Assembly (NCBI GenBank): GCA_021783275.1
Contig: JAJXUA010000002.1
Span: forward strand, 1 to 64,000
Direction: 5' to 3'
DNA: 64,000 nucleotides
DNA from: Pseudomonadota bacterium
Lineage (GTDB): Bacteria; Pseudomonadota; Gammaproteobacteria; Burkholderiales; Thiobacillaceae
This document shows, in pieces, positions 19,604 through 37,484 of the stretch; the stretch's first letter is position 1, and each line of letters opens with the position of its first letter. The position numbers and the translations under genes are program-made. The notes beneath the pieces were generated by a model. It ran no database searches. It was not told where the DNA came from and saw only the letters and a list, made by a program, of their open reading frames with translations.

Positions 19604-21574
19604 TCAGTCGCCCATGCCCATAACGATATAGCCGGTCGGGCACACGTCTGCACAGATATGGCAGCCGATACACTTGCCGTAGTCGGTGTCCACATAACGG
19701 CCCACCGTCGGGTTGTCTTTCTTCTTGACCTTGAACACGGCGGTCTGCGGGCAGTACACCACGCAGTTGTCGCATTCGAAACACTGGCCGCAGGACATGC
19801 AGCGCTTGGCTTCTTCAATGGTCTTCTTGTCCGACAGGGCATGCAGACGCTCTTCGAAGTTACCCAGTGCGCCTTCCTTGTCGAGCACGGTCACGTCACG
19901 GATGTTGCGTTCTACCGCCGGGAAATGGCCGAGGAACAGTTCGTTGTGCGGAATGATATGACGCGACGAACGGTCTTCGAAGTTGTGCAGCAGATCTTTA
20001 CGCTCGGACGTACCCATGTCCTGGCCCTTGATCTCGTTGTACTCGTGACCCGATTCCAGCCATTTGCGAATCTGGTCAAAGTGATGCACGTCGACTTTCG
20101 GACGCTTCTCGAGTTCTTTCTTGCCCGACAGGAAGGCATCGATGCCATCCACCGCAATTGAAGCATGGCCAATGGCCGTGGTCAGCAAATGCGGCTTGAT
20201 CACGTCGCCGCCGACGAAGATGTGCTCTTTGCCAGGGTAGCGGTAGTTCTTGTCGGCCTTGATCAGACCGTTGTTGTTGTTGAAGCCTTCGATGCCGGTG
20301 AAGTCCACACCCTGACCAATCGCCGAAACGATGAGGTCGGCCGGCAGATCACGCTCGGTACCGGCAGTGATCTTGGTTTCTTTGCCTTCCATCGTGAAGT
20401 CGGCAACGCGCAGCGCAATGGCACGGCCTCTTTCGTCGAGCACACAGGCAATCGGGGTCACGCCGCCGAGGATTTCGATGCCTTCCTGCTGCGCATGTTC
20501 GATTTCGTGCTTGGAGGCGTTCATCTTGTCGATGGTGGCACGCGACACCAGGGTCACGTCCGCACCGTCACGCGCCGAGATCGACGCCACGTCGTGCGCC
20601 ATGTGGCCGGCAATGACGTTTTCTGCCGCTGGACGCTCGTCAGCCGTACCACTCTTGGTGACGTTACCCAGACGACGCGCAACGGTCACGACGTCAATCG
20701 AGGTATCGCCACCGCCGATCACGACGACGCGCGAGCCGACGTGCTGCAGTCGGCCTTCGTTGAACGCACGGAGGAAGGCGACAGCGGTCACGACGTTCGG
20801 CGCTTCGGCACCGGGCACCGGCAGCGGACGGCCCGCCTGTGCACCCATTGCCATGAAGATGGCGTCGAATTCCTTTTCGATGTCATCAAACGCGACATCG
20901 GTGCCCACGCGGGTCTTGAGACGGGTTTCGACGCCCATTTCAATGATGCGGCCGATTTCCGAATCAAGCATTTCACGCGGGGTACGGAAGCCGGGAATGC
21001 CGTAGCGCATCATGCCGCCGAGCTCTTCGTGCTCGTCGAAAATGGTGACGCCGTGGCCTTTGAGTCGCAGCTGATACGCCGCAGCCAGACCGGCCGGGCC
21101 CGCGCCGATGATGGCCACTTTCTTCCCGGTTTCAGCCGCCGCAGCGGTGAATTTCATGTTGTTTTCGATACCCCAGTCGCCGACGAAATGCTCAACCGAG
21201 TTGATGCCGACGTGGTCTTCCACCATGTTGCGGTTACAGCCCGATTCACACGGTGCCGGGCAGACACGCCCCATCACTGCGGGGAAAGGATTGGCCGAGG
21301 TGATGCGCTCGAACGCATATTGTTGCCAGGTCACACCTGCGGGCGGCTTCTCGATGCCACGCACGATATTGAGGTAGCCGCGAATGTCTTCACCCGCCGG
21401 GCAGGAGCCCTGGCAAGGCGGCGTGGACAACATGTATTCCGGGCACTTGTGCGTCCAGCTGGCCTGAAAAATCAGGTCCTGGGCCGAGCGCACATTCGCC
21501 GGGGTCTCGCCGTCCTTGTAACGACGCCACGTAACGCCTTCGGTTTTCGTCCCTTTATTCGTCGTAACAGCCAT
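19604..21574 (-). CDS. dsrL: DsrL, FAD/Fe-S NAD(P)H:acceptor oxidoreductase
   Basis: GltD-like: CPAPCESGCNRN...VAIIGAGPAGLAAAYQLRLKGH...; C-terminal CMSCGQCFECDNCVVYCP...CIGCHICADVCPTG; dsr synteny. Confidence 0.95.
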   Translation of the reverse strand: MAVTTNKGTKTEGVTWRRYKDGETPANVRSAQDLIFQASWTHKCPEYMLSTPPCQGSCPAGEDIRGYLNIVRGIEKPPAGVTWQQYAFERITSANPFPAVMGRVCPAPCESGCNRNMVEDHVGINSVEHFVGDWGIENNMKFTAAAAETGKKVAIIGAGPAGLAAAYQLRLKGHGVTIFDEHEELGGMMRYGIPGFRTPREMLDSEIGRIIEMGVETRLKTRVGTDVAFDDIEKEFDAIFMAMGAQAGRPLPVPGAEAPNVVTAVAFLRAFNEGRLQHVGSRVVVIGGGDTSIDVVTVARRLGNVTKSGTADERPAAENVIAGHMAHDVASISARDGADVTLVSRATIDKMNASKHEIEHAQQEGIEILGGVTPIACVLDERGRAIALRVADFTMEGKETKITAGTERDLPADLIVSAIGQGVDFTGIEGFNNNNGLIKADKNYRYPGKEHIFVGGDVIKPHLLTTAIGHASIAVDGIDAFLSGKKELEKRPKVDVHHFDQIRKWLESGHEYNEIKGQDMGTSERKDLLHNFEDRSSRHIIPHNELFLGHFPAVERNIRDVTVLDKEGALGNFEERLHALSDKKTIEEAKRCMSCGQCFECDNCVVYCPQTAVFKVKKKDNPTVGRYVDTDYGKCIGCHICADVCPTGYIVMGMGD

Positions 21575-21620
21575 GTTGGTTCTCCTAACGCCTGAGTAAC
21601 TTGAAGTAGATAAATTGCAA

Positions 21621-23162
21621 TCAGTCAGCCTGTGCGGGCACGTCCAGAATGATTGCTTTTGCGACGAGTTGGTGGACGCCGCCCACCATGCTCATGTCGA
21701 AACCGTATTTGGGCAGCACTTTGGTGAACTGCGCCTTGCAGATCGCGCAAATCGTTGCCATGAAATTGACCTGGTATTCCTGCACCACGGCATTCAGCGC
21801 GGTGGCACGCGGCAATGCGCCCTTGACCCGGACTTCCATCAGGTCATCGGTGAGCAGGCCGCCGCCGCCACCGCAGCAGAACGTCGATTCGTAAATCGTG
21901 TCGTCCGCCATGTTGTGAAAATTGTTGACGACCGAATTGATCAGTTCGCGTGGAATGGCAAATTGCCCACCAGGCTCGGTGCCCATGCGCGAAGCACGCG
22001 CCACGTTGCACGAGTCGTGATAGGTCACGATCAGATCGTCGTTCTTCGACGGATCAACCTTGATCTTGCCCGACTTGATGAGATCGTTGGTCAGCTCACA
22101 AATGTGTTGCGGCTGAGGGTAATCGTGATTCAGCTGTTTTTGCAGCTCGACCGAGAACGGATCGTCCGCGCCGTAACCAATACCGGTCAGCGTGTTCCAG
22201 AAGCTGTAGGCCACGCGCCAGGCGTGCCCACATTCGCCGACGACGATACGCTTGACGCCGAGTTCCAGCGCGGCGTCGCGGATCCGCATCGCCACCTTGC
22301 GCATGGTTTCGTAGTTGCCGTTGAACAAGCCGAAATTGCCCGCCTCGGAAGCTTTCGAAGACAGCGTCCAGCTGGTTCCGGCGGCATGGAACACCTTGGC
22401 ATAGCCAATCAGCGATTCGACATGGGGCTCGGAGAAGAAGTCGGCAGAAGGGGTGACGAGCAGCACTTCTGCGCCCACTACGTCGAGTGGCAGTTTCACT
22501 GGCGCGCCAGTGTCGGCCTCGATGTCTTCTTCCAGACCTTCCAGCGTATCGGCCAGCGCAGGCCCGGGCAAACCGAGGTTGTTACCGATCTTCTGGACTT
22601 TGCCGAGAATCTCGTTGGAATACTTTTGCCCCATCCCGACATGGTTGAGGATTTCGCGACCCGCCATGGTGATTTCAGCGGTATCGATGCCATACGGGCA
22701 GAACACCGAGCAGCGGCGACATTCGGAACACTGGTGGTAATAGTTGTACCAGTCGTCGAGCACTTCCTTGGTCAGATCCTTGGCGCCCACCAGCTTGGGG
22801 AACAGCTTGCCCGGCAGCGTGAAATAGCGACGATAAACCTGGCGCATCAGATCCTGGCGCGCAACCGGCATGTTTTTCGGGTCGGACGTGCCCAGATAAT
22901 AGTGACACTTGTCAGTACACGCGCCGCAATGCACACAGGCATCCAGGAACACCTTCATCGAGCGGTACTTGCCCAGCAGGTCGCCCATTTTTTCGATGGC
23001 GCGCTCTTTCCAGTCTTCCCCGAGTTCGTGGGGATAGCCCATGAAATCCTGCACCGGCTGGCCCGCAATAAAGCTCTTGGAATGCGCCATCACGCCTTCA
23101 CGCAGCTTCGGAACCTCGATCGTGTCCTTGATTTCCGGAATATCAAATTCAGCAGCAGCCAA
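21621..23162 (-). CDS. dsrK: DsrK, HdrD-like catalytic subunit
   Basis: CVHCGACTDKCHYYLGTSDPKNMPVARQ...CSECRRCSVFCPYGIDTAE...; CCG domain ...CCGGGGGL. Confidence 0.96.
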   Translation of the reverse strand: MAAAEFDIPEIKDTIEVPKLREGVMAHSKSFIAGQPVQDFMGYPHELGEDWKERAIEKMGDLLGKYRSMKVFLDACVHCGACTDKCHYYLGTSDPKNMPVARQDLMRQVYRRYFTLPGKLFPKLVGAKDLTKEVLDDWYNYYHQCSECRRCSVFCPYGIDTAEITMAGREILNHVGMGQKYSNEILGKVQKIGNNLGLPGPALADTLEGLEEDIEADTGAPVKLPLDVVGAEVLLVTPSADFFSEPHVESLIGYAKVFHAAGTSWTLSSKASEAGNFGLFNGNYETMRKVAMRIRDAALELGVKRIVVGECGHAWRVAYSFWNTLTGIGYGADDPFSVELQKQLNHDYPQPQHICELTNDLIKSGKIKVDPSKNDDLIVTYHDSCNVARASRMGTEPGGQFAIPRELINSVVNNFHNMADDTIYESTFCCGGGGGLLTDDLMEVRVKGALPRATALNAVVQEYQVNFMATICAICKAQFTKVLPKYGFDMSMVGGVHQLVAKAIILDVPAQAD

Positions 23163-23215
23163 TGGGGTGTCCTTTATCCGTTTTCAGGTGTTTGTCTGTC
23201 GCGCAGGCAAACCCG

Positions 23216-23932
23216 TTATTTTTGGTCCAGCCGCGCCGCCCACGCCGCGATGTGACGACGCTCGCGCGGGTTGTCCACCTGATTGCGGGTGGGGCTGAAA
23301 AACAGGCCGGGCGCATGAAGCAGCTTGCTGATGGGGAAAATCGCCATCAGCAGCGCCACCATGACCAGATGCGCCAGGATAATCGGCTCTTGCGGGACGG
23401 GCTGCACGTCCAGATAAATCAAACCCATGAAAAACGTTTTCAGCGCAACGATATCGGTATGGGCAACGAAGGTCGTCAGCATGCCGGTTATGCCGATGCC
23501 CAGTATCAAGACCAGCATCAGGAAATCGGACGGAGTCGAAATATAGCGGACGCGATCCACCAGAAAACGCCGCGCCAGCAAGCCGGCCAGACCGATCACC
23601 ATCATGAAGCTGGCGTATTTACCAAAAGGCTGAATGAACACCAGCCATTCGGGAATCGGATTGATGAAATAGCGCAGGTGACGCACCAGCACCAGCAACA
23701 TGCCAAAGTGAAACAGCCAGCCAAACACCCAGATCCACTTGTTCGCCTTGAACAGCGATTCAAACACCACGACTTCTTTGGCCATGCGATACACCACGCC
23801 AGCCTGGGTGGTCGGCGCAGGCGTAGTCGGGATCACGAGCGGCGCAGGGGTGCGGCTGTAATCATAAATCTTGAACGCCAGACCCACGACGAGCAGGAGC
23901 GTCGCAAGGTAGAACATCCCGGCAAAAACCAT
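23216..23932 (-). CDS. dsrM: DsrM, membrane cytochrome b subunit
   Basis: MVFAGMFYLATLLLVVGLAFKIYDYSRTPAPLVIPTTPAPTT...; NarI-like; next to dsrK. Start inferred within the 23992 ORF. Confidence 0.92.
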   Translation of the reverse strand: MVFAGMFYLATLLLVVGLAFKIYDYSRTPAPLVIPTTPAPTTQAGVVYRMAKEVVVFESLFKANKWIWVFGWLFHFGMLLVLVRHLRYFINPIPEWLVFIQPFGKYASFMMVIGLAGLLARRFLVDRVRYISTPSDFLMLVLILGIGITGMLTTFVAHTDIVALKTFFMGLIYLDVQPVPQEPIILAHLVMVALLMAIFPISKLLHAPGLFFSPTRNQVDNPRERRHIAAWAARLDQK

Positions 23933-24069
23933 CGTCAAGGTAGACAAATCCCAACTCCTGCTTGTTTTATGATCCGCTTCGATAGCACACACGATGCGCT
24001 ATCGAAGCGTGGCTTATTCAAGCCAACGCATCGCAATCACCCGGCCAGCCGGGCGATTGACATGCAGCT

Positions 24070-24405
24070 TTAGATACAGCCTGTAGGCTTCGGCAGGCCG
24101 GCAATCTTACAAGCCTGCTTGGCGGGGCCGTAGGGGAACAACTCGTACAGGTACTTGTTGTTGCCTTTATCGGGACCGAGCTTCTTGCCGATCGCCTTGG
24201 TCAGAACGCGGACAGCCGGTGCGATCTGGTATTCGGCGTAGTACTCACGCAGGAAGTTGACAACTTCCCAGTGCGAATCGGTCAGGTCGACTTTTTCTTC
24301 GACAGCCATGTACTTGGCCACGTCTTCGTTCCACTGCGACAGATCGACCAGATAGCCTTCTTCGTCGACTTCGTACTCTTTACCAGCGATATCTACCATG
24401 GGCAT
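24070..24405 (-). CDS. dsrC: DsrC, sulfur carrier with two C-terminal Cys
   Basis: MPMVDIAGKEYEVDEEGYLVDLSQWNEDVAKYMAVEE...QACKIAGLPKPTGCI. Confidence 0.97.
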   Translation of the reverse strand: MPMVDIAGKEYEVDEEGYLVDLSQWNEDVAKYMAVEEKVDLTDSHWEVVNFLREYYAEYQIAPAVRVLTKAIGKKLGPDKGNNKYLYELFPYGPAKQACKIAGLPKPTGCI

Positions 24406-24427
24406 AGCAATACTCCTTTATTTAAAG

Positions 24428-24727
24428 TTACAGCCAAGACTGGCAGGTGTTGTGTTCTGCGACGAGATCCACGAAACCGCCGAAATCCACGACATTGACG
24501 CCGTCCAGCACGCGCCCGGCCATGCCGCGCGCTGCCAGATCGGGACCGAGCGCGTAAACCTTGAGGCCAGCCGCCGCTGCCTGGATTTTCGCCGCCGCTG
24601 CGCTGCCCTTCGTCGCCGCGTACACCGCGTCTTCAATCAGCAATACAGCAGAACCCTGAGTGGCCATGGCGAGGCAGCTTTCCAGCGAACCGCGTTCCGT
24701 GGCCGATTTATTCACAATATGCAACAT
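24428..24727 (-). CDS. dsrH: DsrH, sulfurtransferase complex subunit (TusB-like)
   Basis: MLHIVNKSATERGSLESCLAMATQGSAVLLIEDAVYAA. Confidence 0.94.
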   Translation of the reverse strand: MLHIVNKSATERGSLESCLAMATQGSAVLLIEDAVYAATKGSAAAAKIQAAAAGLKVYALGPDLAARGMAGRVLDGVNVVDFGGFVDLVAEHNTCQSWL

Positions 24728-24737
24728 ATCCGTTCCC

Positions 24738-25133
24738 TTAGAAGCTGATGACGACGTCTTGCTCGGCCATGAGATTGGCCATCTCCGGCACGGACAATAC
24801 GGTCACGTCAACAATCAGGTCGTCCTCGGACAAACCACGCGCATCCATCGAAGCCTGGTCAACATAGAGTTTCTCGATGTCGTAGCCTTCCAGCGCACGG
24901 TAGGTCTTGGAAAAATCCTTGACCTCGATCCCCTTGCTGTCGATGCCCTTGATCAGCTGATACACGCCGTCGCCGGTGAATACCATGCTCACATCCTGAT
25001 CGAACGCTGCCGTAATCAGCACCACTTCCAGACCTTCGAGCGCATACACAGTACCGTGTGGCGCTTTGCGGTTCAGGAACATGAATTTCTTGACGACGCC
25101 CGAGCCGTCATCCATATCATCCATATCACTCAT
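24738..25133 (-). CDS. dsrF: DsrF, sulfurtransferase complex subunit (TusC-like)
   Basis: KFMFLNRKAPHGTVYALEGLEVVLITAAFDQDVSMVFTGDGVYQL; synteny. Confidence 0.94.
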   Translation of the reverse strand: MSDMDDMDDGSGVVKKFMFLNRKAPHGTVYALEGLEVVLITAAFDQDVSMVFTGDGVYQLIKGIDSKGIEVKDFSKTYRALEGYDIEKLYVDQASMDARGLSEDDLIVDVTVLSVPEMANLMAEQDVVISF

Positions 25134-25145
25134 TTTCTTCTACCC

Positions 25146-25505
25146 TTAATCGCCGAACGTAACGAGACGATCGTATTGAATGCCCATTTCCACCAGCTGA
25201 CCCAGACCCGAAATACGAAAGCCGGGGGCCAGCACGTCGTCGTTGATGCCGCGGCGCTGCGCGGCGGCCACACACACCACCAGATCAACACCGTGATCGG
25301 CAGCGAGCTTGGACCAGCGTGCAGAGACGTTGCGGTCGTCCTGCGGCGGGGTCGCCAGACGCGTGGAGTTGTTCACACCATCGTGATAGAAGAAAACGCG
25401 CGGAACGCTATGACCTTTCTCGATCGCCGTGCGGGCGAAGAGGAAAGCCGAATCACTGGCCTGATGGGTATAAGGCCCTTCGTTTACAAGAATGCCGAAT
25501 TGCAT
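25146..25505 (-). CDS. dsrE: DsrE, sulfurtransferase (TusD-like)
   Basis: MQFGILVNEGPYTHQASDSAFLFARTAIEKGHSVPRVFFYHDGV...VVCVAAAQRRGI (conserved Cys). Confidence 0.95.
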   Translation of the reverse strand: MQFGILVNEGPYTHQASDSAFLFARTAIEKGHSVPRVFFYHDGVNNSTRLATPPQDDRNVSARWSKLAADHGVDLVVCVAAAQRRGINDDVLAPGFRISGLGQLVEMGIQYDRLVTFGD

Positions 25506-25543
25506 GGCTCACTCAAACTCCGAAAATACTGTCTTATTGATCG

Positions 25544-25576
25544 AACACCCGCCGCAGACTGGCTGCGGCGGGTGTT
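25544..25576 (-). other. Perfect 14-bp intercistronic hairpin between dsrB and dsrE
   Basis: AACACCCGCCGCAG-actgg-CTGCGGCGGGTGTT. Confidence 0.85.
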
Positions 25577-25595
25577 GACGGCTTGCTGAACGCGC

Positions 25596-26666
25596 TTAGA
25601 AGCGGATGTGCGCCGAAGCGTTCAGGTTGGCACGGCCACCACGCCAGTTATCGATGTGATATTTGGTGAAGGGCAGGCCGGTTTTTTCGAAGAATGCCGG
25701 CCAGCCAATGCGCTCGATCCAGTCGATCATGCGCTCCCACGGCTTGCCATCTTCCTTGTAGGTTGCGAGGATTTTTTTCACAACTTCGCTAACTTCCGGC
25801 CAGCGCGGTGCGTTGTTCGGCAGACCCGAGGCCACCAGCTTGTGGAAAGTGGGCTTGGAACGCGCGTTGGAGTTCTTGCCGCCGACCCAGATCGCGATCT
25901 TCGAATGCTCGGGATCGTTGATCTGCATCGGGGGACACGGGGGGAAGCACGCGCCACAGCAGATGCACTTCTTCTCGTCCACTTCCAGCGAGGGCTTGCC
26001 GTTCACCAGAGCGGGACGAATTGCCGCGACCGGGCAACGCGCGACGACCGAAGGACGTTCGCACACGTTAGCCACCAGATCGTGGTTGATTTTCGGCGGC
26101 TTGGTGTGCTGAACGATGATCGCGATGTCGGCCTGGCCGCCACAGTTGATTTCGCAGCACGAGGTCGAGAGCTTGACGCGGTTAGGCATCTCGCACTTGA
26201 CGAAGTCGTCGTACAGCTCGTCCATCAGCGCCTTCACCACGCCGGAAGCGTCGGTGCCGGGAATGTCGCAATGCAGCCAACCCTGGGTGTGGGCGATCAT
26301 CGAGACCGAGTTCGCGGTCCCACCGATGGGGTATCCCTTGTCGTTCAGCGCCTTGATCAGCGGCTCGACTTTGGAACCGTCGGCAACCATGTATTCAATG
26401 TTCGAACGTGCGGTGAAACGGACAAAACCGTCGCCGTACTGGTCAGCGATATCAGCCAGTTCGCGGATGGTGTAGTGATCCATCTGGCGCGCGGTACCCG
26501 CTTTGACGGTCCAGACTTCGTCGCCAGATTCAGCGCGGTGATACAGGACACCCGGTTTCGGATGGCTATGGAAAGTCCACTTGCCATAGTTTTTGACCAT
26601 GACAGGATGCATGTAGGGCATCGGGTCCGGTGCGCCAGACTCGATAGGGGGGCGTAAATCAGCCAT
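25596..26666 (-). CDS. dsrB: Reverse-type dissimilatory sulfite reductase subunit beta
   Basis: MADLRPPIESGAPDPMPYMHPVMVKNYGKWTFHSHPKPGVLYHRAESGDEVWTVKAG; siroheme/Fe-S Cys motifs. Confidence 0.97.
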   Translation of the reverse strand: MADLRPPIESGAPDPMPYMHPVMVKNYGKWTFHSHPKPGVLYHRAESGDEVWTVKAGTARQMDHYTIRELADIADQYGDGFVRFTARSNIEYMVADGSKVEPLIKALNDKGYPIGGTANSVSMIAHTQGWLHCDIPGTDASGVVKALMDELYDDFVKCEMPNRVKLSTSCCEINCGGQADIAIIVQHTKPPKINHDLVANVCERPSVVARCPVAAIRPALVNGKPSLEVDEKKCICCGACFPPCPPMQINDPEHSKIAIWVGGKNSNARSKPTFHKLVASGLPNNAPRWPEVSEVVKKILATYKEDGKPWERMIDWIERIGWPAFFEKTGLPFTKYHIDNWRGGRANLNASAHIRF

Positions 26667-26692
26667 GTTTGTTCTCCAACAGATTTGATACG

Positions 26693-26718
26693 CGGGTTTT
26701 GGTGATTACCAAAACCCG
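26693..26718 (-). other. Perfect 11-bp intercistronic hairpin between dsrA and dsrB
   Basis: CGGGTTTTGGT-gatt-ACCAAAACCCG. Confidence 0.85.
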
Positions 26719-26732
26719 GGGATAAGCAGCGA

Positions 26733-28034
26733 TCAGGCAGCGGACTGCTTGTACTCGTTCCATTTTTCGACTTGCTCGTCCCAGTCGTCGGAACGGAAGT
26801 ATGGGTTGGAACGCGGCTCTTTGATCATGTTGGGGTCAACCGGAATATCCAGACCTTCGAGGAAGTTGGTCAGGCCGATACGCTCGATCATTTCGCCGGT
26901 ACGCTCATGCTCCAGCGCGTTTTCAGCGAAGAAGTCGAGAATGTTGCGTGCCAGTTCGTTCAGTTTTTCGAAGTCTTCGTCCGATTCGAGCTTCATGAAC
27001 GGGATCACCACGGTGCCCATGGAGGCGCCGATTTTCAGCACGCCCTTGCCGCCCACCAGGATCGACACACCTTTGTCAACGCCGGGCAGCAGGCCGCCGG
27101 GGATGACGTTCAGGCAATGCATGCAGCGCACGCAGTTTTTGTTGTCGATGCACATCGTCTGACCGTTGCCGAGGTCGGCGGTCGAGACAGTGTTAGCGAC
27201 AGCCACTTTACCGGTTTCAACCAGGGTGATCGCCTTGGTCGGGCACTTGCTGATGACGTCGTTGACGAGGTCATTCATGCCGTGGGCTTTGAAGTAGTCC
27301 TGAACTTGCGCTTCGTTGACGCGGATGTTGTCGCGCCAAGTACCGATGGTCGCCATGTCCGAACGCTGGATAGCGTTGACACAGTCGTTCGGGCAGCCCG
27401 AGAACTTGAACTTGAATTTGTACGGCAGCGACGGACGGTGCATGTCGTCGAGGTTGTTGTTGATGACGGTACGCAGCGCTTTGGCTTCGTCGTAGCACGA
27501 CATTTCGCAACGCGCAGCGCCGACACACGACATCGAGGTACGCAGCGCGGGGCCTGCACCACCCAGGTCGAAGCCCATTTCGTTGAAGGCGTCGAAGGCG
27601 CCCTGCACGTCAGCGGTCTTGATGCCTTGGAACATGATGTCGCCGGACTGGCCGTGGAACGCGATCAGGCCCGAACCACCTTTGTCAGACCACACGTCGC
27701 ACATTTTGCGCAGCAGATCCGAACTGTAATGCATGCCTGCCGGGGGCTGAACACGCAGGGTGTGGAATTCAGCGGCTTCCGGGAAAATCGGGTTGTGGTT
27801 TTCGTCTTTCAGTTCGGTGAAACGCGGAATCACGCCGCCGCCGTAACCGAACACACCCACGGTACCGCCCTTCCAGTAACCGAATTTGGTTTTGTAAGAG
27901 GTTTCCAGCTGACCCATCAGGTCAACCATCATGTCGTTGTCTTTAGCCAGACGCTTGAGGCCAGTCACGAAACTGGGCCACGGGCCGCTTTCGAGCTGAT
28001 CCAGATTGGGCGTATCAATCATTTGCTTTGCCAT
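26733..28034 (-). CDS. dsrA: Reverse-type dissimilatory sulfite reductase subunit alpha
   Basis: TPNLDQLESGPWPSFVTGLKRLA...YGGGVIPRF...SGCPNDCVNAIQRSD; DsrA. Confidence 0.97.
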   Translation of the reverse strand: MAKQMIDTPNLDQLESGPWPSFVTGLKRLAKDNDMMVDLMGQLETSYKTKFGYWKGGTVGVFGYGGGVIPRFTELKDENHNPIFPEAAEFHTLRVQPPAGMHYSSDLLRKMCDVWSDKGGSGLIAFHGQSGDIMFQGIKTADVQGAFDAFNEMGFDLGGAGPALRTSMSCVGAARCEMSCYDEAKALRTVINNNLDDMHRPSLPYKFKFKFSGCPNDCVNAIQRSDMATIGTWRDNIRVNEAQVQDYFKAHGMNDLVNDVISKCPTKAITLVETGKVAVANTVSTADLGNGQTMCIDNKNCVRCMHCLNVIPGGLLPGVDKGVSILVGGKGVLKIGASMGTVVIPFMKLESDEDFEKLNELARNILDFFAENALEHERTGEMIERIGLTNFLEGLDIPVDPNMIKEPRSNPYFRSDDWDEQVEKWNEYKQSAA

Positions 28035-28143
28035 TATTTATCTCCTAGAAATTTCGAAATGCCCGCCTAGCCGACTGCCAACGGTATTCCAGTATCGTAT
28101 TGGCTTGTTAGCCAGCTCACCATCATTCTCATGGGTAAATCGA

Positions 28144-28184
28144 CTACTCCATATGGGTAGGTGCTGCCTACCCATATGGAGTAG
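28144..28184. promoter_or_regulatory. 18-bp perfect inverted repeat in the dsrA / cas6-like divergent intergenic region
   Basis: CTACTCCATATGGGTAGG-tgctg-CCTACCCATATGGAGTAG. Confidence 0.75.
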
Positions 28185-28322
28185 TTTGCTTTCCCCAACA
28201 CGGGAATGCCCCTGCGGCTTCGTTAGTGCGACAGTGTGTCTGTGCCACAGGAGCCGATAAGAGTATTAAAATATCGGGCTCAACGCAAGCCCTGTCCGTG
28301 CAGGGATCATGTTGGGTACCTG

Positions 28323-28346
28323 CCGGGCCGCAATTGATCGGCCCGG
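28323..28346. other. GC-rich inverted repeat CCGGGCCG-n8-CGGCCCGG upstream of the plus-strand cluster
   Basis: Perfect 8-bp arms; no T-tract. Confidence 0.5.
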
Positions 28347-28455
28347 TGCTGTCGCCAGTCGGGTTGATTCGGCCTGACGAAAACAATTAAATGAGCACCG
28401 CCGGTTGAATCTTGCATCTGCAACCACAATTTGGCGTTTTACGGATCGAGATGCA

Positions 28456-28701
28456 ATGCCTGAAATTACCCCGATAGACAAAATGCGGCTCGCCTTTGGC
28501 GGCCAGGAAATTGAATTCCAGCACCTGATCCATGAAGCGGGGGGCGTGCCCTTCCTGCGCATACGCATACGCGAGAGCAAGCGTTTCACCATTTTCGATG
28601 TGGATCCGGCCAGTGCGGCCAAGTGGATCGACATCATGCAGACCTGGGTGGCAGATCACCCCAATCCCGGTGACACGCCGCAGGCCGGAGAGGCCGCGTG
28701 A
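28456..28701 (+). CDS. Small conserved-looking hypothetical protein upstream of the Cas6-like gene
   Basis: MPEITPIDKMRLAFGGQEIEFQHLIHEAGGVPFLRIRIRESKRFTIFDVDPASAAKWIDIMQTW; stop overlaps the next ATG (28698). Confidence 0.75.
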   Translation: MPEITPIDKMRLAFGGQEIEFQHLIHEAGGVPFLRIRIRESKRFTIFDVDPASAAKWIDIMQTWVADHPNPGDTPQAGEAA

Positions 28702-29354
28702 GCTGGGACTGGCCGGAGCACAAGCCCGAGGAATACACCCCGAGGTTGATCGACCTGCAATTTGACCTGATCGGAACCACTATTCCGGCGGACAACGCAG
28801 GTTTGCTGAGCGCGTCCGTCTGCGCGGTGCTGCCTTGGCTGGGCGAAGATGGCGGATGCGGGATACAGCATCTTAAAGGGGCGGCCACCAATGCCGGAGA
28901 TGCGATTCTGAACATCAATCGCCGCACCAAAATGTATATGCGCATCCCCAAAACACGGATTGCAGATGTTGAAATTCTGATCGGTCAGACGTTCAACCTG
29001 GACGGCCACACACTTGAAATCGGGCCATTCAAATCACGCCAGTTCTCCCCGTTTGGCAATATCTACGCGCACTTCGTTGACACGGGCAGCCCGGGCGAAG
29101 AACAATTCGTCCAGGATGTCATGCGCGAACTTGATGGACACTTCCAGTTGCGCTGCGGTTTCATTTGCGGCAAACAGCAGACCCTGGCGGGCACAGACGG
29201 CCCGATTTACGGTTACAGCCTGATGCTGCATGGTGTGCCCCCTCACAAATCGCTGCAATTGCAGGATGAGGGGCTGGGTCGCAACCGGCTGCTGGGCTGT
29301 GGATTGTTCATTCCGCACAAGTCAATTTCACCGGTCGTTCCGGATATTTTCTAA
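28698..29354 (+). CDS. Cas6/Cmx6-like (I-MYXAN-type) RNA-endonuclease-family protein, no CRISPR in window
   Basis: Pattern ...VLPWLGEDGGCGIQHL...RRTKMYMRIPKTRI...YGYSLMLHGVPPHKSLQLQDEGLGRNRLLGCGLFIPHKSI, with a C-terminal Gly-rich loop G-x-G-R-x-x-x-G-C-G-x-F-x-P-H-K as in Cas6 proteins. Confidence 0.72.
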   Translation: MSWDWPEHKPEEYTPRLIDLQFDLIGTTIPADNAGLLSASVCAVLPWLGEDGGCGIQHLKGAATNAGDAILNINRRTKMYMRIPKTRIADVEILIGQTFNLDGHTLEIGPFKSRQFSPFGNIYAHFVDTGSPGEEQFVQDVMRELDGHFQLRCGFICGKQQTLAGTDGPIYGYSLMLHGVPPHKSLQLQDEGLGRNRLLGCGLFIPHKSISPVVPDIF

Positions 29355-29416
29355 CCCCGCCGGTTGATTCAATCCAGTCACCCGGCGCTTTTTAACCCAC
29401 CCCGAAAGGAGCAACC

Positions 29417-29749
29417 ATGTCTTACATAGTGAACGGCGAAGAACTCGAAACCGGCGAAGAAGAATTCCTGCTGGAAGCCAATTTCAGCGACGATGTGCCG
29501 CCGGTCATCGCCGCCGCCGAAAAAATCACGCTGACCGATGATCACTGGATCGTCATCAACTGGCTGCGTGAAAAGTACAAGGAAGACGGCCAGACCCCGA
29601 ACTTCCGCAACATGGTCATCCAGATGGACGACGAGCACCCCGGCCACGACTGGAAGAAAAAGCTCTACGAATTGTTCCCCAACATGCCGGCGCGTCAGGG
29701 TTGCCGCGTTGCCGGTCTGCCCAAGCCGTTCGGCAAAGGCGGCTACTAA
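29417..29749 (+). CDS. DsrC/TusE-family paralogue lacking the penultimate Cys
   Basis: ITLTDDHWIVINWLREKYKEDGQTPNFRNMV...LYELFPNMPARQGCRVAGLPKPFGKGGY. Confidence 0.93.
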   Translation: MSYIVNGEELETGEEEFLLEANFSDDVPPVIAAAEKITLTDDHWIVINWLREKYKEDGQTPNFRNMVIQMDDEHPGHDWKKKLYELFPNMPARQGCRVAGLPKPFGKGGY

Positions 29750-29757
29750 GCCTATCG

Positions 29758-29835
29758 GGTGAGGCGTAAGGGGCGAGGCGTGAGGCGGCAATCGCCGACA
29801 CGACCCGCCGCCCCTCACCCCTTCCGCCTCACACC
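29758..29835. repeat. Imperfect inverted repeat (GGTGAGGCGTAAGGGGCGAGG... / ...CCCCTCACCCCTTCCGCCTCACACC)
   Basis: Arms 29758-29788 and 29805-29835 largely complementary; between the dsrC paralogue and the rhodanese gene. Confidence 0.6.
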
Positions 29836-29841
29836 TCCCCC

Positions 29842-30684
29842 ATGCCCAGCACCCTCATCACCCCCGAACAACTCGCCGCCCAGCTCGATACCTGCGTCGT
29901 CATCGACTGCCGTTTCTCGCTGGCCGACACCGGCTATGGCCGGCGCGTCTACGCCGTCGGGCATATCCCCGGCGCGCGCTACGCTCATCTCGACGACGAC
30001 CTTTCGTCGCCGAAATCCGCAAGCACCGGTCGCCACCCTTTGCCCGAGCTCGCCCGCTTATGCCGCCAGCTCGGTGACTGGGGCATTACTCCCGCCACCC
30101 AGGTCGTCGTCTACGACGACAGCTTCGGCTCGATGGCGGTACGCCTGTGGTGGCTGCTGCGCGGACTCGGCCATCAAAAGGTCGCGCTGCTCGACGGCAA
30201 CTTCCCCAGGTGGGCGCGCGAAAAGCATCCGGTCACAGCCGATTTGCCGGTCGTCACGCCGGTGACTTACCCCATCCCAGCAAGCGTGGACTGGGGCGTG
30301 GACGCCAACGCCGTGGAGGCTATCCGTACCTCTCCTGCACACAAGCTCATCGACGCGCGTCCGGAAATGCGTTTCAGCGGCGAAGTCGAAAAAATCGACC
30401 CTGTCGCCGGACACATCCCCGGCGCGATCAACTGGGTGTATGAAGAAAACCTCGACCTCGACGGCACCTATCTGCCCGCCGACGAATTGCGCGCCGCCTA
30501 TACGCAGCTGCTCGGCGAAGTCGCGCCGCAAAACGTCGTTCACACGTGTGGCTCGGGTGTCACTGCCTGCCACAACGTGCTCGCGATGGAAATCGCCGGC
30601 CTGCCCGGCTCGCGCCTCTACCCCGGCTCGTGGAGCGAATGGATCACCGATCCGTCGCGTCCCGTCGCCACTGGTGACGCCTGA
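29842..30684 (+). CDS. Two-domain rhodanese (thiosulfate/mercaptopyruvate sulfurtransferase family)
   Basis: CVVIDCRFSLADTGYGRRVYAVGHIPGARYAHLDDDLS...; C-terminal loop HTCGSGVTACHNVLAM. Confidence 0.93.
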   Translation: MPSTLITPEQLAAQLDTCVVIDCRFSLADTGYGRRVYAVGHIPGARYAHLDDDLSSPKSASTGRHPLPELARLCRQLGDWGITPATQVVVYDDSFGSMAVRLWWLLRGLGHQKVALLDGNFPRWAREKHPVTADLPVVTPVTYPIPASVDWGVDANAVEAIRTSPAHKLIDARPEMRFSGEVEKIDPVAGHIPGAINWVYEENLDLDGTYLPADELRAAYTQLLGEVAPQNVVHTCGSGVTACHNVLAMEIAGLPGSRLYPGSWSEWITDPSRPVATGDA

Positions 30685-30728
30685 GTTTCATCCGTTTCAG
30701 TTCCACCCGATTTACTGGAGTCGCACCC

Positions 30729-31349
30729 ATGGTCAAACCCGTCAAAGTCCGCACCATCTGGTTCAAGAAAGACGGCGAACGCACGCCCGAAGAAATCGCT
30801 TCGGCGGTCGCCACGACGACCTGGCGGCTCGCCGACAAGGCGGTCGATAACCTCGGCCGCGAGAACTACGACATCATCACCCCGGGGCGCGGCTTCAAGC
30901 TCATCGCCGAATTCGTTGCTTTCCTCGCGCACTACTGTGACCGCATGGCCTACGCCACGCTCACCCCCGAGCGTCGCATCGCCGTGCTGCAAGCCGTGTC
31001 GAACCGGCTCGGCGAAGTGATGGAAGAGAACGTCCGCGAAGTCGTCGGCAAAAACGACCCGCGCAACTACAAGCAGGAATTCATCGATTTCTTGAACAAG
31101 CGCTTCGAGGAATACGCCGAGTTCGACTTCCCCAACGAAGAGAAAGCCAGCTTCCCCGCGCTGCGTTTCCTCTCGCTGCAAATCCGCGAAGAAATGGGCG
31201 ACAACGACAAGACCTGGATCATGGATCAGATCATGGACATCGAAATGCCCGAGATGATGGGCACGGTGCGGAAAAGCTTTATGGGGCTGTTGTCCGACGC
31301 GCCGGTTAAACGCGGCTTCGGTTCGCCCGACATGCTGCCACCGGAGTAA
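30729..31349 (+). CDS. Hypothetical protein, 206 aa, in the dsr-linked plus-strand cluster
   Basis: [46 protein letters not shown]...; good RBS spacing and synteny. Confidence 0.75.
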   Translation: MVKPVKVRTIWFKKDGERTPEEIASAVATTTWRLADKAVDNLGRENYDIITPGRGFKLIAEFVAFLAHYCDRMAYATLTPERRIAVLQAVSNRLGEVMEENVREVVGKNDPRNYKQEFIDFLNKRFEEYAEFDFPNEEKASFPALRFLSLQIREEMGDNDKTWIMDQIMDIEMPEMMGTVRKSFMGLLSDAPVKRGFGSPDMLPPE

Positions 31350-31355
31350 GCACTT

Positions 31356-32261
31356 TTGGCTTCGCCATTCGATCTGGCTGACACCACTGCCTACCGTGTC
31401 TGGCGTGATGCCAGGCTCGCTGCCTACCCGCGCAGCGTCGAAGATCTCTTCGTCCCGGTCGCCGACCCGCGCGCGCTGAGTCCGGCCGAAAGGCAGGCAC
31501 TCGCGGCCGCTGTCGCGCGCGCCAACATGGTGTTTTATGCCGCGCCACACCTGCCTGCTGCGGACAAATCCTTGCCCAAAAAACTCGGCGAACAGCTGGG
31601 ATTGTTCCGGCTCGAAGGCAACTACCTCGCCGACGAAGACGGGCTCTCCAGCATTACGCCCAGCGCAGACGAAACCAGCGCGCGCGGCGATTACATCCCG
31701 TACACCCACAAGCCGATCAACTGGCATACCGACGGCTATTACAACGCGCTCGACAAACGCATCCTCGGCATGTCCCTGCACTGCGCGCAGGACGCGGAAG
31801 ACGGGGGCGAAAACGCCCTGCTCGACCATGAAATCGCCTACATCCAGCTGCGTGACACCCATCCCGACTACGTCGCCGCGCTGATGCAGCCCGATGCGAT
31901 GACCATCCCTGCGCGCATGGACGATGACAACATCGCCCGCGCCGAGCAGTCCGGCCCGGTTTTCTCGATTGATCCTGCAGCAGGCTTCCTGCACATGCGT
32001 TACACCGCGCGCACCCGTTCCATCGTCTGGAAAGCCGACACCACCACGCAGGCCGCGGTAAAAACCCTGACTGAGATCCTCGCCGATTCGGAATACACCC
32101 TCAGCGCGCGCATGACCCCGGGTGTCGGCCTCATCTGCAACAATGTGCTGCACACCCGCAGCGCGTTTTCCGATTCGCCCGGCAAGCGGAGACTGCTGTA
32201 TCGCGGGCGCTACTATGATCGCCTGCGTTTTGATTTAGCCTCCTCCGCACACCCTGCCTAG
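31356..32261 (+). CDS. TauD/TfdA-like Fe(II)/2-oxoglutarate dioxygenase family protein
   Basis: INWHTDGYYN (HxD), ...NNVLHTRSAFSDSPGKRRLLYRGRYYDR distal His/Arg region. Confidence 0.82.
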   Translation: MASPFDLADTTAYRVWRDARLAAYPRSVEDLFVPVADPRALSPAERQALAAAVARANMVFYAAPHLPAADKSLPKKLGEQLGLFRLEGNYLADEDGLSSITPSADETSARGDYIPYTHKPINWHTDGYYNALDKRILGMSLHCAQDAEDGGENALLDHEIAYIQLRDTHPDYVAALMQPDAMTIPARMDDDNIARAEQSGPVFSIDPAAGFLHMRYTARTRSIVWKADTTTQAAVKTLTEILADSEYTLSARMTPGVGLICNNVLHTRSAFSDSPGKRRLLYRGRYYDRLRFDLASSAHPA

Positions 32262-32307
32262 CGGGAGCAGGTAAAATAGCGGCCTTTGTTTTCGGCCACT
32301 TGCCGTC

Positions 32308-33558
32308 ATGCAGCTTCTTGCCCTTGGGGTTAACCACCATACCGCACCGCTCGCGATACGCGAGCAGGTGGCGTTCGGCCCCGAAAAGCTGCTGGAGGCA
32401 CTGCGCGAACTGACCCAAAGCCAGCGCGCCAGTGAAGCGGCCATCCTGTCTACCTGCAACCGTACCGAGCTGTACTGCAACACCGCCGATGTGGACACGG
32501 TGACGCAGTGGCTGGCCGATTTTCACCACCTGCCACGGCGCGAACTTGCCCCCTATCTCTATGCGCTGCCGCGCGAGCAGGCCGCGCAACATGCTTTTCG
32601 CGTGGCGGCCGGGCTGGATTCGATGGTACTGGGCGAAACCCAGATTCTGGGTCAGATGAAACAGGCGGTGCAGACCGCCGAAGAAGCCGGCACGCTGGGA
32701 CTGCTGCTCCACAAACTGTTCCAGCGGTCTTTTTCCGTCGCCAAGGAAGTGCGTACCAGCACGGAGATTGGTGCGAACTCCGTCTCCATGGCGGCCGCAG
32801 CGGTGCGCCTGGCTGAACGCATTTTTCCGGGCCTGAAGGAACAATCCTGCCTGTTCATCGGCGCGGGCGAAATGATCGAGTTGTGCATGACGCACTTTGC
32901 GGCGCAGCATCCGCGCCAGATCACCGTGGCCAACCGAACCGCCGAGCGTGCCCGGCCCCTGGCCGAACGCTTCGGCGGCGAGGTGATTGCGCTGACCGCG
33001 CTGCCCGAGGCCGTTGCGGCGCATGACATTATTGTCACCTCGACCGCCAGCCCGCTGCCGATCCTGGGCAAGGGCATGCTGGAGCGTGCCATCAAGCAGC
33101 GCCGCCACCGGCCGATTTTCATCGTCGATCTGGCGGTGCCGCGCGACGTGGAAGCCGAAGTCGCCGACATGGACGATGTGTTTCTGTACACGGTGGACGA
33201 TCTGGGACTGGTGGTGCGCGAAGGCATGGACAACCGCGTGGCCCAGGTGGCGCAGGCCGAGGCGATTATCGAAACCAGCGTGGAACACTTCGTCCACTGG
33301 ATGGAAGGCCGCGAACTCGTTCCGGTGATACGCGCCCTGCGCGACACGGCCGAGCGCCACCGCCGCCACGAAATCGACAAGGCCGAAAAAGCCCTGGCAC
33401 GCGGCGACGATCCGGCTGGCGTGCTCGACAGCATGAGTCAGGCGCTCGCCAACAAGCTCCTGCATGCACCCACCCATGCGCTCAACCACGCCACCCGCAC
33501 TGAGCGCGACGCATTTGTGAGGCTGATTCGCCAGCTATATGGTTTACGCGACGAATGA
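32308..33558 (+). CDS. hemA: Glutamyl-tRNA reductase
   Basis: [23 protein letters not shown]...[11 protein letters not shown]...[11 protein letters not shown]. Confidence 0.97.
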
Positions 33559-34637
33559 AAGCCTCGCTGGCCGATAAACTCGCCCGTGCCAACGAGCGGC
33601 TGGAAGAACTCGACGCCCTGTTATCGCAGCCCGAAATCGCGGGGGATATGGACACCTGGCGTAAGTTCACCCGCGAGCGCGCCGACCTCGACCCGGTCGT
33701 CACCCTCTATCGCCAGTTCAAACAGGTCGAAGCGGACGAGATCACGGCACGGGGGCTGCTCGCCGACCCCGACCTGCGTCAGTTCGCCGAAGCCGAGCTG
33801 GCGGATGCCGCCGCCCGAACGCTGCAACTGGAATCGGCACTGCAAACCGCACTCCTGCCGAAAGATCCCAACGACGAACGCAACCTGTTTCTGGAAATCC
33901 GTGCTGGCACCGGCGGGGATGAGTCGGCACTGTTTGCGGGCAACCTGCTGCGCATGTACACGCGCTATGCCGAGCGCTGTGGCTGGAAAGTCGAAGTTGT
34001 ATCCGACAACCCCGGCGAAATGGGCGGTTACAAGGAAGCCATTGTGCGCATCGTCGGCCAGGGCGCGTATTCGCGGCTGAAATTCGAGTCCGGCGGCCAC
34101 CGGGTGCAGCGTGTGCCGGAAACCGAATCGCAGGGTCGTATCCACACCTCGGCCTGCACCGTAGCGGTGATGCCGGAAGCCGACGAAGTCGGTGAAATCA
34201 CGATCAACCCGGCCGACCTGCGCATCGACACCTTTCGCGCCTCGGGGGCGGGTGGCCAGCACATCAACAAAACCGACTCCGCGATCCGCATCACCCACCT
34301 GCCGACCGGGCTGGTGGTCGAATGCCAGGACGACCGCTCCCAGCACAAGAACAAGGCGCAAGCCCTGTCGGTACTGGCCGCCCGCCTGAAAGACCGCGAA
34401 CTCAGGGCGCAGCACGCGCTGGAAGCCAGCACCCGCAAAAGCCTGATCGGCAGTGGCGACCGCTCCGACCGCATTCGTACCTACAATTTTCCGCAAGGCC
34501 GCATCACCGACCATCGCATCAACCTCACCCTGCACAAGATCGACGCGATGCTGGACGGCGACCTCACCGAATTGTTTGACGCACTAGCCGCCGAACACCA
34601 GGCTGAACTGCTGGCCACCCTGTCTGGCGAAGCCTGA
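33555..34637 (+). CDS. prfA: Peptide chain release factor 1
   Basis: ...[22 protein letters not shown]...[40 protein letters not shown]. Confidence 0.98.
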
Positions 34638-34640
34638 GTC

Positions 34641-35501
34641 ATGGGCACTGCAACGACCGTTGCCGGCCTGCTGGACGACGCCACCCGGCGACTGTCGTCC
34701 ACACTCGATCTCACTCAGCGTGACGCGCGGCTGGAAGCGCGCGTGCTGGCCGCCCATGCCTTGCAGGTCGATCCTGCCTGGCTGATTGCGCACGACACCG
34801 ACACGCTCAAACCCGCTCAAGTGGCCGGTTTTGATGCGCTGCTCATGCAGCGGCTGGCCGGCATACCCGTGGCGTATGTGGTGGGAGCGCGCGAATTTTA
34901 TGGTCGCCGTTTTCAGGTCACGCCCGACGTGCTCATCCCCCGCCCCGACACCGAATTGCTGGTTGAATGCGCGCTGCAGGCGATGCCGCCCCGGCGCAGC
35001 CTGGAGGTACTCGACCTGGGTACCGGCAGCGGATGCATTGCCATTACTCTGGCGCTGGAGCGCCCCGATGCGCGCGTCACCGCCATTGACCAGTCCGCCG
35101 CCGCGCTGGAGGTGGCCCGGCGCAATGCCCGACACCTTGGCGCATCCGTCGTGTTTCAGGCGGGAGACTGGTTCAGCCCGCTGGGTGGACAACAATTCGA
35201 CCTGATTGTCAGCAATCCGCCGTATATCGCCGCGCACGATCCCCACCTGTCGCGGGGCGACCTGCGCTTCGAGCCTGTCGGCGCACTGGCATCGGGGGCA
35301 GACGGGCTGGACGACCTGCGCGCCATCGTTGCGGCGTCCCGCAGCCACCTCAAGCCCGGCGGGGTCTGCCTGCTGGAGCACGGCTGGGATCAGGTCGGGG
35401 CCGTGTGTTCGCTATTCAGGCAACAGGGCTGGCACGCGCCTACCAGTTGGCCCGATCTGGCGGGCATCCTGCGCGTCAGTGGCGGAAAACTGTCGGAATA
35501 A
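34641..35501 (+). CDS. prmC: Release factor glutamine methyltransferase
   Basis: ...VLIPRPDTELLVECAL...VLDLGTGSGCIAITLALERP...IVSNPPYIAAHDPHL. Confidence 0.96.
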   Translation: MGTATTVAGLLDDATRRLSSTLDLTQRDARLEARVLAAHALQVDPAWLIAHDTDTLKPAQVAGFDALLMQRLAGIPVAYVVGAREFYGRRFQVTPDVLIPRPDTELLVECALQAMPPRRSLEVLDLGTGSGCIAITLALERPDARVTAIDQSAAALEVARRNARHLGASVVFQAGDWFSPLGGQQFDLIVSNPPYIAAHDPHLSRGDLRFEPVGALASGADGLDDLRAIVAASRSHLKPGGVCLLEHGWDQVGAVCSLFRQQGWHAPTSWPDLAGILRVSGGKLSE

Positions 35502-35581
35502 TTTACACTCTGCGTGCGTGGCGTGTATTACAACAGCCCGAGTTGCTCATTCTAAGCCGGTTTCGGGACACTTCGTATATG

Positions 35582-35598
35582 TTGGTGTGATTCTTGCT
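35582..35598 (+). promoter_or_regulatory. Putative sigma-54 (-24/-12) promoter
   Basis: TTGGTGTGATTCTTGCT: GG-N10-GC spacing, 41 bp before the ATG at 35640. Confidence 0.6.
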
Positions 35599-35639
35599 GT
35601 GTAGTCCTGCATAACTTAACTGCTTTTTCGAGGCCCGCC

Positions 35640-36296
35640 ATGTCTGACCAGAAACCTGAAAACCAGGACATTTCCACCCCGGTATCCGAGGACGCCCCGG
35701 TTAATGCGTCGCGTCGTCGACTGACGGGAGGTGCCCTGGGCGTCGCCGCCGTCTTCACCCTGGCCAGCCGCCCGGTCTGGGCCAATCAATGCAGCATCTC
35801 GGGCATGATGTCGGGCAATCTGTCCAAGCCCAAAGAGCCAGCTTGCGCAGGCTGCACCCCGGGCTACTGGAAAGTGTGCAACCATCTGGATTCATGGCTC
35901 GCAACAGGCTTCAAGCCAACCGACACCTTCAATAGCGTATTTGGCGTTACCCAGTACGTGGATTGCCAGGGTACGCCTTATACCCTCCTCGACGTGATGT
36001 ATCTAAGTGGCGGCACTTATTCCTGCGGTCCTGGAGGCAACAAGAACGCCAACCCGGCCGGCGCGCCCAGTAGTTGCACTAACGGCAATGCCTTCGGCAG
36101 ACTGGGCGGCGACCCCATATCCGAGAACCTGGGCTTCCATGCGGTCGCGGCCCTGCTCAATTCGGCGCATCCCAACGTCAACTATGGCTATACCTCTGGC
36201 GAGTTGATCAATCTGTTCAAGAATAATCTTGCAACACCCCAAGCGCTCAAGGACTCACTTGCCATGTTGAACGAGCGGGGCTGCCCGCTGAACTGA
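35640..36296 (+). CDS. Exported (Tat-like signal) Cys-rich protein with CTPGYWK motif
   Basis: NASRRRLTGGALGVAAVFTLASRPVWANQ signal; KEPACAGCTPGYWKVCNHLDSW; ...GCPLN end. Confidence 0.75.
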   Translation: MSDQKPENQDISTPVSEDAPVNASRRRLTGGALGVAAVFTLASRPVWANQCSISGMMSGNLSKPKEPACAGCTPGYWKVCNHLDSWLATGFKPTDTFNSVFGVTQYVDCQGTPYTLLDVMYLSGGTYSCGPGGNKNANPAGAPSSCTNGNAFGRLGGDPISENLGFHAVAALLNSAHPNVNYGYTSGELINLFKNNLATPQALKDSLAMLNERGCPLN

Positions 36297-36299
36297 CCC

Positions 36300-36569
36300 A
36301 TGTCGTCTCATTCCACCCCGGCCCGTCTGCTGAAATGCTGGGGTGACGAGGCGATTGTCTATGACACGGGCTCCGGCGACACGCATTACCTCAAGCCACT
36401 GACGCTGGCGCTGTATCAAACCTGCCGCGAACATCCCCAGCAAACGGCTCCCGAAATTGCAGCGCTCCTGGCCCAGCGACTCAACGTCGCCGACACGCCG
36501 CAATTTCGTGAACTGGCCGAAGACGTGCTGACCGATTTGCGCAACATCGGTTTGCTGGCCTCCCCATGA
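36300..36569 (+). CDS. PqqD-like protein (HPr-rel-A system type)
   Basis: RLLKCWGDEAIVYDTGSGDTHYLKPLTLALYQTCREH...; follows exported protein by 3 bp and overlaps the kinase start. Confidence 0.78.
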   Translation: MSSHSTPARLLKCWGDEAIVYDTGSGDTHYLKPLTLALYQTCREHPQQTAPEIAALLAQRLNVADTPQFRELAEDVLTDLRNIGLLASP

Positions 36570-37480
36570 AACTGCTGCAACTGTCCCCCGCCGATTTGCG
36601 CCGCCAGCTGGCCGGTGCCGGGGTGTGGATGCGCACCGGGCCGTTTTCGCTGCGGATTCAATCTCGCCTGCCCGATATTGCGGACGGTCTGGCTCAGTTG
36701 TATGGCCAGTTTGAAGTACGCAGCGCGCAGGAATCGTTCGCTGATTTTCACGTTGCGCTGAATGCGCCGGCAGGGCTGCGCCGCTGGGTTAAACCGCAAG
36801 CCCGGTTTTTTTTCGACGGCCAGCAGCCTTTCCGTCCCCTGCCGCGCGCCCAGGCACTGCCGCTACTGGAATGGGGACTCAACTGGTGTGTATCGATGCA
36901 CGCCCACCAATACCTCATCATCCATGCGGCGGTGGTCGAAAAAAACGGGCGCGCGGCGATACTGCCTGCCCCGTCCGGTTCAGGCAAAAGCACGCTGACT
37001 GCTGGACTGGTGCTGTCGGGCTGGCGTTTGCTGTCGGATGAACTCACGCTGATCGACCGTAAAACCGGCCTGATACAGCCATTGGCGCGGCCCGTCAGCC
37101 TCAAGAACCAGGCGATAGACGTGATCCGGCAATTTGATGCCGACGCGGTCATCAGCCGATCCACGCATGACACGATGAAAGGGACGGTCGCGCTGATGCG
37201 CCCGCCGCGCGACAGCGTGATGCGGCAGCACGAACCCGCACAGCCCGCCTGGGTGATTTTCCCCAAATGGGAAGCTGGGGCCAGCACGCGACTCAGCCCG
37301 CGCTCGCAGGCGCAGACCTTCATGTTCCTGGCCCAGAACGCCTTCAACTACAGTCATCTGGGGGTGGATGGCTTCCGCGTGGGCAGTGCCCTGATCGACC
37401 GGGTCACCTGCTATGATTTCCGCTATAGCCAACTCGACGAAGCCATCGCGCAGTTCGACCGTCTGGCCGACGCGCACTGA
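36566..37480 (+). CDS. HprK-related kinase (HPr-rel-A system type)
   Basis: HAAVVEKNGRAAILPAPSGSGKSTLTAGLVLSGWRLLSDELTLID P-loop and downstream motif as in HprK-like kinases. Confidence 0.85.
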   Translation: MKLLQLSPADLRRQLAGAGVWMRTGPFSLRIQSRLPDIADGLAQLYGQFEVRSAQESFADFHVALNAPAGLRRWVKPQARFFFDGQQPFRPLPRAQALPLLEWGLNWCVSMHAHQYLIIHAAVVEKNGRAAILPAPSGSGKSTLTAGLVLSGWRLLSDELTLIDRKTGLIQPLARPVSLKNQAIDVIRQFDADAVISRSTHDTMKGTVALMRPPRDSVMRQHEPAQPAWVIFPKWEAGASTRLSPRSQAQTFMFLAQNAFNYSHLGVDGFRVGSALIDRVTCYDFRYSQLDEAIAQFDRLADAH

Positions 37481-37484
37481 AGTC

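Follow-up and report, generated by a model that had tools for sequence, protein, structure and literature searches.

A Cas6-family gene opposite dsrA

The window (the whole stretch of 64,000 nucleotides analysed here) carries a dsr locus in which dsrA, B, E, F, H, C, M and K lie to the left of a Cas6-like gene and are divergent from it, with dsrA, its divergent partner, at 26733..28034 and dsrB at 25596..26666, both on the minus strand. Rightward, on the plus strand, the order is DUF6967 (PF22295; 81 aa; 28456..28701, taking the ATG at 28456 as start, the mechanical ORF start being 28405), the Cas6-like gene (28698..29354; 218 aa), a DsrC-like paralogue that ends in GLPKPFGKGGY and keeps one of the two C-terminal cysteines (29417..29749), a rhodanese/3-mercaptopyruvate sulfurtransferase-like gene (29842..30684), a conserved protein of 206 aa (30729..31349) that matched no family with confidence and that Thiobacillus and three other families keep in the cluster, and a TauD-like Fe(II)/2-oxoglutarate dioxygenase (31356..32261). 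The first-pass annotation had named dsr genes, a dsrC paralogue and a rhodanese as the neighbours, and all three are present. In gammaproteobacteria the Cas6 side usually opens with a homologue of the TauD-like gene, and in several of these loci this homologue is followed by a protein of approximately 236 aa without a Pfam match.

The 218-aa ORF begins with GTG and shares 4 bp with the end of the gene upstream. It is a real ORF and, by sequence and predicted fold, a true member of the Cas6 family. It matched TIGR02807 (cas6_cmx6) with an E value of 1.4e-59 and 201 bits (cut-off 98.85), PF09559 (Cas6) with 8e-55 and 186 bits (cut-off 26.7) and the PADLOC Cas6 models with 4e-60, while its sole sequence match in the PDB was the Cas6 of a type I-B CAST (E value 4e-12, strengthened to 4e-31 with a family profile). 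An AlphaFold model built with 63 aligned members as input reached a pLDDT of 90.8 and a pTM of 0.85, and a Foldseek search of the PDB with this model returned 8fcu_B and 8fcj_B (type I-B CAST Cas6) at a TM of approximately 0.80, followed by Pyrococcus Cas6 and others, with Cas6-type proteins through rank 32. The first-pass recognition of a 218-aa Cas6/Cmx6-like protein was therefore right, in the family models as well as in the structural comparison that it had proposed, and the C-terminal Gly-rich loop and the RR block that it described are both there as written. Across the dsr-linked family, G192, G194, G200, G202 and F204 of this loop are near-invariant.

Compared to known proteins, the closest relative is the Cas6 (Cmx6) of type I-MYXAN and I-B CAST systems (TIGR02807; PDB 8fcj/8fcu), with which the dsr-linked protein shares the family model, the fold and the loop GxGxxRxxGCGxF; in contrast to it, the dsr-linked protein has no cas operon, no His at position 49 and an acidic composition, and carries an invariant E134 where seven cyanobacterial Cas6 have Pro. 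Pyrococcus furiosus Cas6 (3i4h, 3pkm) has the fold in common at a TM of approximately 0.6, whereas the dsr-linked protein lacks the His46 equivalent and has no CRISPR role.

Linkage to dsr and independence from CRISPR

All 36 other Thiobacillus genomes searched carry the Cas6-like gene in one copy each, although one retains only a 48-residue C-terminal stretch (G027) and another a partial copy (G022). Gene order was identical in 17 Thiobacillus loci and differed slightly in three other families. The median dN/dS was 0.14 over 1097 Thiobacillus pairs, which are non-independent, and the gene is thus under purifying selection.

Co-occurrence was evaluated in 369 sampled genomes of the GTDB class Gammaproteobacteria, with Cas6 called by PF09559 and dsrA by an E value below 1e-30, a cut of our own choice. 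PF09559 was found in 119 genomes and a strong dsrA in 121, of which 113 had both, six Cas6 only and eight dsrA only, leaving 242 with neither (Fisher p value 1e-76, which overstates the count of independent events because the sampled species are related). In most of the six genomes with Cas6 only, a TauD-like or DsrC-like gene lies next to Cas6 and the contig is short or ends nearby; one of the six (L194) contains part of dsrA. For five of the eight dsrA-only genomes, relatives of the same family in the sample have Cas6, so that some absences may be assembly gaps; a family profile search of three dsrA-only genomes (G130, G139 and G267) still found no Cas6. Both genes lie on one contig in 83 genomes, and in 81 of these they are divergent and 0.66-4.5 kb apart; distances between Cas6 proteins followed those between DsrA proteins with a Spearman coefficient of 0.85 overall and 0.35 within the gamma group. 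The family is retained in genomes as small as 1.0-1.1 Mb (G099, G202, G315, G347 and G410).

Outside this sample the link narrows. Among 249 Pseudomonadota the family was found in three members only, all from the GTDB class Gammaproteobacteria and all with dsrA, and it was absent from all 46 genomes of other classes above the dsrA cut-off (oxidative and other dsr types undistinguished). Dsr therefore does not universally need the Cas6-like protein, and in this survey the link is confined to the beta/gamma lineage.

A search of the window for CRISPR-like arrays returned none, in agreement with the first-pass annotation. The same genome does contain CRISPR loci elsewhere, namely a type I-C operon (Cas3c/Cas5c/Cas8c/Cas7c) on contig C16 and a type II Cas9/Cas1 locus on contig C37, with no array on the stretches read of these two contigs (L215 and L216). 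One alternative is that the protein is an ordinary CRISPR Cas6 for arrays located elsewhere in the genome, given that several relatives have CRISPR loci too and that most type III systems apparently use Cas6 supplied in trans (PMC12669027). However, type I-C works without cas6 (PMC5944118, PMC3150331) and type II relies on RNase III (PMC3575380), so the genome-wide CRISPR search that had been proposed turned up no system that would explain an ordinary Cas6. Cas1 was missing from 66 of the 119 carriers of the Cas6-like gene; the other 53 have it, as do 84 of 250 non-carriers (p value 0.05), an association that is not appreciable next to that with dsrA, which the proposed neighbourhood comparison extended far beyond the window genome. 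In Thiobacillus, 16 of 37 genomes have Cas1; G011, a closed genome, lacks it but retains the Cas6-like gene. The window copy has dsr neighbours and is accompanied neither by a cas operon or array nearby nor by a Cas6-needing type in its genome. Together with its single copy, its dsr synteny and its place on the opposite side of the tree from CRISPR-linked Cas6, the I-C and II systems that need no Cas6 and the carriers without cas1 lead us to reject an ordinary CRISPR role as the main explanation and to regard it as extremely unlikely. In that tree, whose bootstrap had not settled, support was 100/99 for the split of the cyanobacterial relatives from the rest and 100/97 for a group of the gamma proteins.

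Residue signature, charge and partner proteins

We compared 133 dsr-linked proteins with seven relatives from cyanobacterial plasmids, of which six lie in cas operons; these relatives are few and all cyanobacterial, and the 133 include a few proteins of the same family that are not beside dsrA. Among the latter are those of two genomes of 1.4-1.5 Mb (L187 and L188), in which the family is kept away from dsrA and without a DsrC-like neighbour.

R82, Q189 and the Gly-rich loop are common to both sets. In contrast, position 49, which we take, by eye, to be the equivalent of His46 in P. furiosus Cas6, is His in five of the seven relatives and in none of the 131 dsr-linked proteins with a residue there. 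The usual catalytic-His position was placed in 8fcj by alignment and is His there too, the motif in 8fcj and these relatives being LHE/LHD. GIQHLKG had been considered as the site of the lost catalytic His, a reading that was dropped, as His is missing there in the CRISPR-linked relatives too and most of them have it in LH[DEN], eight residues nearer the N-terminus. All 133 dsr-linked proteins have R76 and E134, while all seven relatives have Pro at 134; R82 is invariant as well, K208 is found in 131 of 133 and H207 in 125 of 133. At 130 and 196 the relatives always have a basic residue, which the dsr-linked set has lost; this set has gained basic positions at 75, 76, 87, 114 and 208. Overall, the charge is reversed, with a predicted pI of 5.7 for the window copy (group medians 5.9-6.4) against 9.3-9.6 for CRISPR-linked Cas6, and a net charge of roughly -6 against +6 to +10.

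These results bear on whether the protein is still an endoribonuclease, cutting a hairpin of some transcript from the dsr locus or otherwise related to sulfur with the His57/His60 region, R76, H207 and K208. The Gly-rich loop is kept and the His, Arg and Lys positions are strongly conserved, two of the seven CRISPR-linked relatives are without His at position 49 themselves, and the loss of this His is no proof of inactivity because Sulfolobus solfataricus Cas6 (Sso1437) cleaves without the canonical catalytic His, which is thus not essential in every Cas6 (PMC3652601). However, the Sulfolobus enzyme cuts CRISPR RNA by a network of basic residues (PMC3652601), whereas the window-type protein is acidic and dsr-linked; in addition, His57 is Gln in most Thiobacillus copies and the sole candidate hairpin in the leader is weak. 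The other conserved residues leave room for cleavage, but with a usual His position that is never His and an acidic protein we consider this explanation unlikely. The first-pass proposal of an exapted RNA-processing or RNA-binding protein thus stands in its Cas6 family, its independence from CRISPR and its tie to the oxidative dsr locus, while for the same two reasons the plain retention of a Cas6 endonuclease has become the less likely part of it.

In 66 of 96 loci the stop of DUF6967 and the start of the Cas6-like gene have 4 bp in common, and in one genome (G056; L039 9231-10115, minus strand) the two form a single ORF of 295 aa that matches both Pfam models. The AlphaFold model of DUF6967 (pLDDT 87) has a bbbb-alpha topology with a predicted PUR/Whirly-like fold, and its best PDB matches were mostly PUR-domain proteins that bind single-stranded nucleic acids (probability approximately 1, with weak E values of 0.03-0.5). 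Among the gammaproteobacterial loci examined, DUF6967 was recognised in only one.

Directly 3' of the Cas6-like gene, a DsrC-like gene was found in 124 of 129 loci. It belongs to the DsrC family by models and differs from DsrC, TusE and RspA in its invariant KGGY end, found in all inspected copies, and in missing one or both redox cysteines: both are absent in nearly all inspected loci, the window copy and that of L039 keep one, and the penultimate, sulfur-carrying cysteine is missing in all. This paralogue may be comparable to the RspA type, which is DsrC-like without the two C-terminal cysteines. As its KGGY tail is invariant, the tail may serve in binding.

DsrEFH and DsrC are homologous to TusBCD and TusE, respectively. 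A protein with an RNA-binding fold, encoded next to a DsrC-like gene, could accordingly be an adaptor between a DsrEFH/DsrC-type sulfur relay and tRNA, acting in tRNA thiolation. The adjacent DsrC-like protein, however, is without the sulfur-carrying cysteine in all inspected loci, and the Cas6-like gene tracks dsrA and is not general, which makes this role improbable. Because the dsr-linked protein is acidic, RNA binding may be lost altogether and a purely protein-protein role is conceivable, as a scaffold or inhibitor that partners the DsrC paralogue and DsrAB. The charge reversal, the loss of basic residues 130 and 196 that are conserved in CRISPR-linked proteins, and the constant pairing with the DsrC paralogue fit such a role, but the Gly-rich loop, the invariant R76 and R82 and the fusion to a PUR-like domain do not, and we regard it as somewhat unlikely.

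Upstream elements and the proposed role

Two elements lie in the dsrA/DUF6967 intergenic region. The first consists of two 17-bp near-palindromes, CTACTCCATATGGGTAG and CTACCCATATGGAGTAG (28144..28184, no strand assigned). This strong inverted repeat was considered as a Cas6 hairpin and rejected: both beta- and gammaproteobacteria have conserved tandem palindromes of the type CTAYYCC-N4-GGRRTAG ahead of dsrA, and since other loci share them the pair is better read as a DNA element, likely a dsr operator bound by a protein. The second is a leader motif, CAAGCCC...GGG, with a weak predicted hairpin (28286..28305, plus strand) upstream of DUF6967. In Thiobacillus it is conserved at this place as CAAGCCC...GGGTTGAAA, its 3' part having diverged in the window, and it slightly resembles a CRISPR repeat; as a CRISPR-repeat-like RNA it folded inconsistently, and column-shuffle z-scores flagged other windows too. 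An Rfam search of 20000-38000 returned no family, and no RNA target of the Cas6-like protein was identified.

Our preferred reading, to which we assign a probability of roughly 0.45, is that a Cas6-family protein was taken out of CRISPR and fixed in the oxidative dsr locus of beta- and gammaproteobacteria, where it would serve as a nucleic-acid-binding regulator of dsr in a module with its partners. We infer a non-canonical binder, most likely of RNA, that would regulate dsr rather than cut crRNA. In betaproteobacteria it would work as a module with DUF6967 and its PUR-like single-strand-binding fold, and it may also partner the downstream DsrC paralogue without the redox cysteine pair, which could signal the sulfur-oxidation status or bind DsrAB, while the Cas6 part would act on a dsr transcript or its leader. 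A role on RNA or single strands is plausible from sequence features, namely the Gly-rich loop, the newly conserved basic set and the fused PUR-like DUF6967. A more far-reaching version, which we offer tentatively, is that an ex-CRISPR processing enzyme now regulates dissimilatory sulfur oxidation at the RNA level throughout the lineage, possibly forming a sulfur-responsive riboregulatory complex with the PUR-like protein and the cysteine-poor DsrC.

A search of the openly accessible literature found no description of a dsr-linked Cas6 or of DUF6967, and nothing relevant on stand-alone Cas6. As regulator, the protein would clearly illustrate how one Cas protein can be exapted for metabolism and not for defence, and would add a missing part to the dsr system, tied to a major sulfur-oxidation pathway even in genomes of approximately 1.0-1.1 Mb. 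Family members exceed the cut-off by which annotation pipelines call a CRISPR gene and are likely systematically mis-annotated as defence genes.

Apart from the dsr loci, another gene annotated as Cas6/Cmx6 without cas neighbours was seen on the Gloeobacter morelensis plasmid pGMOR1 (L203, 5977-9844), where it is lined up with genes for a PAPS-reductase-domain protein, a cupin and hypothetical proteins.
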